DNA of 64,000 nucleotides from Geitlerinema sp. PCC 7407 (GTDB taxonomy: Bacteria; Cyanobacteriota; Cyanobacteriia; PCC-7407): positions 171,001 to 235,000 of the forward strand of contig NC_019703.1 in assembly GCF_000317045.1 (NCBI RefSeq), written 5' to 3'. Positions 27,080 through 39,700 of the stretch are shown one piece after another (within the stretch, counting starts at the first letter, position 1; every line of letters begins with the position of its first letter). Under the pieces are notes generated by a model. That model saw nothing but the letters and a program-made list of their open reading frames with translations, did no database searches and was not told the origin of the DNA. The position numbers were made by a program, and so were the translations under genes.

Positions 27080-27122
27080 ATGCCAGGAACCGGACTTGAA
27101 CCGGTGACACGAGGATTTTCAG
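27080..27122. other. attL: 43-bp direct repeat, displaced 3' half of tRNA-Phe
   Basis: Identical over 43 bases to 39658-39700. It contains the T arm, acceptor 3' strand and anticodon-loop side of tRNA-Phe, but the matching 5' half is absent here. It marks the left end of the integrated element. Confidence 0.93.
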
Positions 27123-27216
27123 ACAACCCATCAACCGCCCAGAACCACTGCGGCATAAGCATCCTAGCAGCCGCATCGACGGGCTTGCCTAATTTTTGGC
27201 CTAAATCCTGGCCCCT

Positions 27217-27252
27217 ATCCCCTGATTTCGCCCCAGAAGTCAGGGGATTTTT
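27217..27252 (+). terminator. Terminator just inside the left end of the element
   Basis: ATCCCCTGA (27217-27225) and TCAGGGGAT (27240-27248) form a 9-bp stem followed by five T. It would stop transcription entering from the host side before the first element gene. Confidence 0.75.
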
Positions 27253-27333
27253 GCGTGCCTTGCTGGAACCCCCACAGTACAAACCAACCATAGAAAACTG
27301 TTAGGATTGTCCGTTAATTCATTGGATATTCCT

Positions 27334-38629: not shown

Positions 38630-39530
38630 CCGGTGGACGATACCCCTGACCCGATTGGTGGAGGTATGGGCCGCCTACTGCGAGTTTCGCCGTGGGCAGA
38701 TTGCCCCATCGACCTATGACCGTGACTATGAAAAATTCACCCGCCGCCTCAAGCGAATGCAGAAAGAGGCCCCCCATCTCCGCAACGCCATTGCGATTCG
38801 CGATTGGCTTTTGGAGCACTACAGCGTCGAGACCAGTCGGCGCACCATTCAGCAGTTCACAGCGGCCTGTAGATGGGCCGAGGAGAGCGATATGCTACCG
38901 TGCAACCCATTCGCCGGGGTTGGCCGCCACCTGCGAACCCCGCGCCCATCAGATACCAACTGGGCCGCGTTCACCCTCGAAGAGCGCGATCGCATCATTG
39001 CCGCGATCGACGTGCACGCCCCCTACTACGGTCCCTGGGTACGATTCCTCTTTTGGACCGGATGCAGACCAGAAGAAGCAGCCGCGCTCAAATGGGGCCA
39101 TGTGTCCCCAGACTGTCGGGAGCTGCTGATTTCTGAGGCACTCCCCCAGGGCCAAAAGGAAGTCCAGTTCACCAAAAATTACCGCTCTACCCGGTTCCCT
39201 TGCGGCGATCGTCTGGCCCGGTTGCTCCGAGAGCAGCAGGCAGCCGGTTTCCACCGTGACGGGTGGGTGTTCCCTGGGCAGAAGGGCGGCCCCATGCACT
39301 ACACCAACTTTCAGACCCGCCACTGGCGGCCCATCGTGAAAGATCTGGTAGAAGCTGGTCACGTTGCCTTCTACCTCAGCCAGTACCACGCCCGCCACAC
39401 CTGGATCACCGGAGCCCTCGATGCGGGGATGACCGTGCAGGATGTGAGCTACCTGGCCAGAGTGAGCACGGCGGTAATCTACAAGCACTACGCCGCCCGC
39501 GCGCGCCGCCCGATCATCCCTGAGTTTTGA
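38613..39530 (+). CDS. Tyrosine recombinase (integrase)
   Basis: 305 aa with an N-terminal SAM-like core-binding domain (about 10-105) and a catalytic domain (about 118-300). Visible residues are the box I Arg152 in WTGCRPEEAAALKWG, the beta-hairpin Lys188 (QFTKNYRS), box II Arg261 in YHARHTW, and nucleophile Tyr290 in AVIYKHYA. The first box II His position is Tyr258 with a His shifted to 259, and the usual LGH before the tyrosine is LARV, so it is atypical. The gene overlaps the primase end by 17 bases and lies 128 bases from tRNA-Phe, its presumed target. Confidence 0.9.
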   Translation: MPRTPNRWTIPLTRLVEVWAAYCEFRRGQIAPSTYDRDYEKFTRRLKRMQKEAPHLRNAIAIRDWLLEHYSVETSRRTIQQFTAACRWAEESDMLPCNPFAGVGRHLRTPRPSDTNWAAFTLEERDRIIAAIDVHAPYYGPWVRFLFWTGCRPEEAAALKWGHVSPDCRELLISEALPQGQKEVQFTKNYRSTRFPCGDRLARLLREQQAAGFHRDGWVFPGQKGGPMHYTNFQTRHWRPIVKDLVEAGHVAFYLSQYHARHTWITGALDAGMTVQDVSYLARVSTAVIYKHYAARARRPIIPEF

Positions 39531-39657
39531 TGCTGAGCCCCGTAGCCTGTGGCCCAAAATGCGAATGGGGCAAGAGACCTAAGCCCCTCACCCCGGTTGC
39601 GAACGCTTCCACTGCATTCACATCAGCGCATCTTATCGATTTGTCAAAGCTGAAAAT

Positions 39658-39700
39658 ATGCCAGGAACCGGACTTGAACCGGTGACACGAGGATTTTCAG
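39658..39700. other. attR: 43-bp direct repeat within intact tRNA-Phe
   Basis: Identical to 27080-27122. The element supplied this copy of the tRNA 3' half, which keeps the tRNA whole after integration. Confidence 0.93.

Follow-up and report, generated by a model that had tools for sequence, protein, structure and literature searches.

A tRNA-Phe-integrated element of Geitlerinema sp. PCC 7407 with an undescribed conserved core: a putative small temperate element of cyanobacteria

In the 64-kb window analysed here (positions 171,001 to 235,000 of NC_019703.1, Geitlerinema sp. PCC 7407; all positions given below are those of the window), an element of 12.6 kb at 27080-39700 is integrated at a tRNA-Phe gene and carries nine genes, g01-g09, here termed the core (Table 1). 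The initial annotation had bounded the region by a perfect 43-bp repeat matching the 3' half of tRNA-Phe. This repeat is exact (98% identity when lengthened to 46 nt), and its right copy lies in the intact tRNA-Phe (GAA) gene on the minus strand, of which it forms the 3' half. The integrase placed at the tRNA end is a tyrosine recombinase, g19, the gene of which adjoins the intact tRNA-Phe and ends 127 bp from the right attachment repeat (attR); this placement, beside one copy of a directly repeated tRNA 3' end, is the arrangement of an integrative element. The taxonomic order to which the window strain belongs is represented by a single genome, and the left flank of the element has no match in other genomes. 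Since eleven further bounded elements carry the same core, chance is not a reasonable explanation, and site-specific integration of the 12.6-kb element is supported. No Pfam match to relaxase or type IV secretion genes, as in integrative and conjugative or integrative and mobilizable elements, was found among the element proteins. The host genome contains a second integrase, 32% identical (L002, G000:C1:4,237,863-4,238,705), possibly of another element.

Between the repeats, g01-g09 on the plus strand are followed by a lipoprotein gene and a repressor-like helix-turn-helix (HTH) gene on the minus strand, and then by a second HTH gene on the plus strand, four small genes, the primase-helicase gene and the integrase gene. 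In the predicted excised circle, this order becomes the switch, the early genes, the primase-helicase, the integrase, the joined attachment site (attP) and g01-g09, all on one strand, which is the layout of a temperate phage. The divergent HTH switch (g12/g13), the early genes (g14-g17) and the primase-helicase (g18) of the initial annotation are all present, and g14-g17 gave no family match in Pfam and PHROGs scans. Allowing one mismatch at most, the 64 kb contain three copies of the palindrome TTGTGANNNNTCACAA, all of them around the divergent HTH genes; these sites resemble the operator set of a repressor and are taken as putative operators. A divergent repressor pair that appears to share operator-like sites would be consistent with a temperate life cycle. 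The lipoprotein g11 may, from its position, be a superinfection-exclusion factor. A terminator-like hairpin lies between the left attachment repeat (attL) and the core operon; the number of terminator-like sites in the region is not above chance.

When the nine core genes were searched against Pfam, PHROGs and NCBIfam, one gave a generic collagen repeat, another gave coiled-coil matches below threshold, and no other match was returned. PADLOC gave no match for g02, g04, g06, g08, g09 and some early genes, and profile searches against PDB sequences gave none for g04, g06, g01 and g08. AlphaFold models of g04 (predicted local distance difference test score, pLDDT, of 85) and of the g06 relative from L079 (pLDDT 90.7), which represent the only two core proteins modelled, both show a mixed alpha/beta structure; when they were searched with Foldseek and VIA, only weak matches to common arrangements were returned, with no known fold and no jelly roll. 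A 2H-phosphoesterase-like assignment of g04 (Z score of 4.9 to rotavirus VP3) was dropped, as the conserved histidines are lacking. After the profile searches and structure prediction that had been proposed as checks, the core thus stays without a known family beyond the collagen repeat, and its two modelled proteins without a known fold. The term 'unrecognised gene cluster' used earlier holds in this sense; however, the cluster is not cargo but the conserved core of a whole family, as described below. As to its products, g02 is a putative surface or adhesion subunit; g03, which also contains hydrophobic stretches, is a candidate fibre, tape-measure or penetration protein; g06 is a candidate coat protein; and g09 appears to occupy a holin-like position.

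Table 1. Features of the integrated element (window positions; aa, amino acids; ORF, open reading frame; TM, transmembrane).
Feature	Position	Strand	Basis
attL, left attachment repeat, 43 bp, copy of tRNA-Phe 3' half	27080..27122		exact repeat
Terminator-like hairpin between attL and core operon	27217..27248	+	13-pair stem and T run
g01, about 109 aa, first core gene, conserved acidic C-terminus (DPDDY)	27334..27663	+	alignment of relatives
g02, 223 aa, N-terminal YC.G, Cys-rich C-terminus, variable middle	27674..28345	+	position and end motifs same in relatives
g03, 790 aa, coiled coil, collagen repeat, conserved C-terminal domain (residues about 555-790)	28342..30714	+	family scans, relatives
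g04, 273 aa, most conserved core protein, no known fold	30717..31538	+	searches, AlphaFold model
g05, about 121 aa, small core protein, family E06	31637..32002	+	clustering of relatives
g06, 188 aa, basic N-terminal arm, no known fold	32046..32612	+	alignment, model of relative
g07, 71 aa, acidic core protein	32615..32830	+	relatives
g08, 157 aa, core protein, invariant W64 and W117	32830..33303	+	alignment of relatives
g09, 156 aa, hydrophobic segment and coiled coil by eye	33300..33770	+	below membrane-segment cut-off; similar TM and coil proteins in relatives
g11, 179-aa lipoprotein beside repressor	33838..34377	-	PHROG 806, 2.5e-6
g12, HTH repressor-like protein	34474..34704	-	sub-threshold HTH_3
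Putative operator 1, TTGTGANNNNTCACAA, exact	34740..34755		palindrome search
g13, Cro/C1-type HTH protein	34799..35038	+	PF13443, 4.4e-6
Putative operator 2, TTGTGANNNNTCACAA, exact	35005..35020		palindrome search
Putative operator 3, TTGTGANNNNTCACAA, one mismatch	35042..35057		palindrome search
g14-g17, four small early genes, 110, 67, 73 and 99 aa	35063..36147	+	ORFs
g18, 805-aa primase-helicase, toprim-like and AAA_25	36212..38629	+	PHROG 239, 1.7e-39; AAA_25, 1.6e-30
g19, tyrosine integrase	38613..39530	+	PF00589, 2e-10; PHROG integrase, 2e-36
attR, right attachment repeat, inside intact tRNA-Phe gene	39658..39700		exact repeat
tRNA-Phe (GAA), intact target gene	39659..39731	-	ARAGORN; Rfam

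Relatives of g04 were found in 25 of 386 sampled cyanobacterial genomes by a single-sequence search and in 26 of the 386, from 21 of 142 genera, by a profile search. Within the family f7, which includes Nostoc and Anabaena, g04 was found in 89 of 217 genomes with up to seven matches each, counts that take in partial and broken copies. A contig search with the window protein alone gave no locus, and one with an alignment of Nostoc-type relatives gave 29 named loci. The gene order is the same in 20 neighbourhoods: a protein of about 110 residues, variable genes, a coiled-coil protein of 640-1200 residues with a conserved C-terminal domain, and g04, followed by a protein of 117-200 residues, an acidic protein of about 75 residues, a protein of about 157 residues and, in many cases, a short membrane protein that has a coil. 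The window element carries this ordered core as g01-(g02)-g03-g04-(g05)-g06-g07-g08 and is, as judged from its sequence, one member of a widespread, undescribed family of cyanobacterial mobile elements. Candidate D06 was ruled out as a member, since it consists of IS110 transposases. A second core subtype, observed at L150, L151, L155 and L156, has a fusion protein of 516-529 residues that joins a hydrophobic domain to g04.

Exact repeats flank the core at ten further genomic places, at tRNA-Phe (G165, G406, G005b and G404a), at tRNA-Lys (G326a, G070 and G404b), at tRNA-Ser (G005a) and in the 5' part of a molybdopterin-oxidoreductase-like gene (G336 and G123). In G454, two 15,393-bp units that are 100% identical stand head to tail in a tandem with a 4-bp overlap (L109-L111, contig C10, about 24,725-55,514), an arrangement that may be an assembly artefact. 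Together with the window element, these make 12 bounded elements with sizes of 10-20 kb. All 12 contain g03, g04 and g01, when the alternative family E23 is counted as g01, whereas the integrases and the replication genes differ among the elements (AAA_25, DUF3854/D5_N, VapE and, on a plasmid, Prim-Pol). This constancy of the core against changing integrase and replication genes is the opposite of what cargo would show, and it makes rather improbable the explanation that the family comprises non-viral integrative elements or plasmids in which the core is host-useful cargo, such as a surface appendage, a contact toxin or a tailocin-like device. G462 has a 7.2-kb core in two places with different flanks, at 99.97% identity, and the tRNA-Phe and tRNA-Lys elements of G404 share a core of about 96% identity. 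From these near-identical cores in different settings, the core moves as a module, much like the virion modules of temperate phages.

Several further observations were made on these loci. The two elements with the non-tRNA target, at L030 and L041, share this target in the 5' part of the molybdopterin-oxidoreductase-like gene and have E13-type integrases. The G454 units begin at a short inverted repeat, TTCACTCT...AGAGTGAA, which suggests a short core site for the small integrase (about 190 residues) of G454. In L112 (G005 contig C62, 30,000-50,000), with L039 and L058, two different family elements lie about 6 kb apart on a single contig, at tRNA-Ser and tRNA-Phe. A second tRNA-Phe 3'-half fragment lies 9-13 kb from an intact tRNA-Phe at G386:C141:71637/84992 and at G389:C30:3607/12914, which suggests further elements. 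In the window, the segment 15001-16000 has a G+C content of 35%, against mostly 50-65% elsewhere, and adjoins a tRNA-Val gene (16544-16615).

Short near-exact matches to a 3.8-kb core stretch of element L083 were found in other genomes of f7. Five of the 20 matches fetched lie in CRISPR arrays, each inside one spacer, over 27-40 nt with 93-100% identity; the spacers come from five genomes, and their targets are g04, g06 or the sequence just downstream of g06; in the array of G573 two adjacent spacers both match the core. A CRISPR-like match at L159 was excluded as a tandem repeat, since its 'spacers' resemble one another. The g04 tree intermingles genera and separates two copies of a single strain into distinct clades, and the ratio of nonsynonymous to synonymous substitution of g04 and g06 is 0.06-0.07, which corresponds to purifying selection. 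Taken together, the spacers, the tree and the selection indicate a living, transmitted element rather than chromosomal genes, and the targeting of the core by spacers and the intermingled genera also speak against host-useful cargo. An ordinary tailed prophage that has decayed or recombined and lost its head genes would account for the phage-type integrase, repressor switch and primase-helicase, but such an origin is very improbable: relatives of g04 occur in 21 of the sampled genera, purifying selection acts on g04 and g06, the gene order is kept, and nothing among known phage proteins matches the two modelled core folds. Moreover, no head or packaging gene was recognised in the bounded elements examined, in which part of the genes was scanned, and no tailed prophage with g01-g09 next to terminase, portal and capsid genes was seen.

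The core or parts of it lie on four circular episomes, where its genes are annotated as hypothetical proteins; in literature searches, which covered open-access papers only, nothing was found that describes these four plasmids as related elements. Two came from a plasmid search: the 37-kb pHT582-1 of Nostocales HT-58-2 (CP019637) carries the core with ParB and restriction-modification genes, and the 15.6-kb pHT582-2 of the same strain (CP019638) carries g03 and g04, ParAB and a MACPF protein. On pHT582-2, a protein of 1664 residues with the pore-forming MACPF domain is encoded at L119:9830-14821, and g03 and g04 are all that is kept of the core. The type-II core, with the hydrophobic domain fused to g04, matches two circular records of about 20.8 kb, Allocoleopsis franciscana PCC 7113 pMIC7113.08 (NC_019743) and Tolypothrix PCC 7601 unnamed14 (NZ_CP064893), both of which have a short integrase and no partition genes listed. 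In pMIC7113.08, g06 and g08 match the family profiles at 1.9e-21 and 1.3e-23 with their order kept, and the gene at the g04 position has no match to the g04 profile. In favour of a cargo role are the core of the 37-kb pHT582-1, where ParB and restriction-modification genes are present, and the g03 and g04 that stand beside a MACPF-domain protein; collagen and LamG domains are, in addition, known in adhesins. However, none of the core proteins read has an obvious signal peptide.

In some relatives, genes of a lysis type accompany the core. G454 encodes an Amidase_3 protein (1.4e-30), and YkuD/Tlde1-like genes, all below the Pfam cut-off, are present in G005a, G097 and G278; in G005a, this gene directly follows a short hydrophobic gene that could encode a holin. 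The core ends of relatives contain sugar-binding domains (LamG and F5/8-type C) as well as cadherin-like (below cut-off) and glycine-rich domains, in proteins that by eye have no obvious signal peptide. This content would fit a virion, attachment and lysis module, the products of which leave the cell by lysis. P-loop proteins in some relatives (E10; 432 and 486 residues in G404), some of which have N-terminal hydrophobic stretches, could be DNA-translocating motors, an assignment that has no family support. A TerL match in one relative (0.0022) is below the cut-off, and the protein concerned belongs to the integrase cluster E04.

From this evidence, the element is interpreted, with a probability of roughly 0.55, as a small temperate virus (a phage-like integrative element) with an undescribed virion module, autonomous or nearly so. 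A stronger form, in which the core is a complete virion with capsid and attachment proteins unrelated to all known viral hallmark folds, the mark of an undiscovered lineage of small temperate viruses, is held more tentatively, at somewhat under even odds; such a lineage would have been overlooked because no hallmark profile recognises the core. In the proposed cycle, the integrase would excise the element when the repressor falls, the primase-helicase would then replicate it, and g01-g09 would be expressed as a late operon beyond attP. The g06 protein, with its basic arm, would coat the DNA, g03 and g04 with g01, g02 and g08 would form a long attachment and penetration assembly, and release of the particles would fall to g09, joined in some relatives by a lysin. 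Since no packaging motor was found in the window copy, packaging would depend either on coupling to replication or on a helper.

Several points weigh against the interpretation as a small temperate virus. No particle has been seen, and a capsid, portal, terminase or tail fold or family was recognised in no core protein. In the window element, profiles of the HK97-fold capsid, the portal and the large terminase gave no match, nor did a Zot-like ATPase, and neither a recognisable lysin nor a packaging motor was found. No relative was found among 50,697 sequenced phages, and none in IMG/VR by pattern scans with two single proteins and two alignments, which need short exact peptides; the element may therefore be rarely or never packaged. 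The 37-kb core-bearing episome is awkward for a small fixed capsid, and the sizes of 10-20 kb overlap those of known satellites, which are defined by packaging in the particle of another phage and measure 6-18 kb (PMC11389934).

The initial annotation left the choice between a satellite and a new small temperate element; the latter description fits, whereas satellite status was not shown, there being no helper or diversion signature. A new type of phage satellite, which integrates and replicates itself and is packaged by a helper, with the core as a part of the particle that is supplied or altered (for example, a tail or adhesion device), is the main rival and the less likely explanation, although a satellite contributing some particle parts of its own is possible. 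The size, the tRNA integration, the primase-helicase and the lack of terminase and capsid families resemble known satellites, the window copy has no detected packaging motor, and g03 has the long coiled coil and hydrophobic stretches of a tape-measure protein. Nevertheless, 6-7 kb of conserved, structural-looking core genes contrast with the minimal hijack genes of P4, PICI and PICMI, and some relatives carry lysis-type genes. Searches of Pfam, PHROGs and NCBIfam gave no match to packaging-diversion, capsid-remodelling or own-capsid genes in the window element, and the host genome has no match to Terminase_6N or the HK97 Phage_capsid; no such resident prophage was found in it, although a helper need not be resident.

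The small temperate virus proposed here shares features with several known systems. Like P4-like satellites, PICI, cfPICI, PICMI and PLE, it is a small element integrated at an attachment site with a tyrosine integrase, a repressor switch and a primase-helicase; however, those elements are defined by the particle of the helper, whereas here the conserved 6-7 kb particle-like core is the hallmark, and neither a hijack gene nor a helper was identified for the family. Tycheposons, described from Prochlorococcus, are likewise integrative tyrosine-recombinase elements of cyanobacteria at tRNA genes. In a comparison by description only, the difference appears to lie in the hosts, the core reported here having been found mostly in Nostoc-type filamentous lineages; tycheposons have been proposed as marine satellites (PMC11389934). 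Corticoviridae-like and FLiP-like viruses and Inoviridae are similar in having small genomes, integration and few structural genes, but the first two have all-beta jelly rolls in place of the mixed alpha/beta models of g04 and g06, and the core differs from small tailless viruses in having a long coiled-coil/collagen protein and no recognised Zot or FtsK/HerA motor. Caudoviricetes prophages share the integrase, the divergent repressor pair, the primase-helicase and a long tape-measure-like coiled-coil protein, but their terminase, portal and HK97 capsid were undetected in the window element. Heterocyst interruption elements (nifD, fdxN and hupL) carry recombinases, are hypothesised to be phage remnants and excise from the interrupted genes during heterocyst development (PMC4874684); by contrast, most of the bounded elements here use tRNA genes, with G336 and G123 in the molybdopterin-oxidoreductase-like gene, and collagen is not mentioned in the main text of that paper. 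The literature searches yielded no description of the present family. The life cycle belongs to a known kind, in contrast to the core.

In conclusion, if the core builds a virion, ecologically important cyanobacteria harbour a widespread virus-like lineage that is missing from the searched phage collections and unrecognised by hallmark profiles. Among the genomes sampled from the family containing Nostoc, about two in five would then carry this lineage, and some CRISPR spacers without a known target would gain an owner. Even as a satellite, the element would be of a new type, one that carries a conserved particle-like module of its own. The circular copies in Allocoleopsis franciscana PCC 7113 and Tolypothrix sp. 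PCC 7601, together with the five CRISPR-bearing genomes, make these possibilities directly testable.
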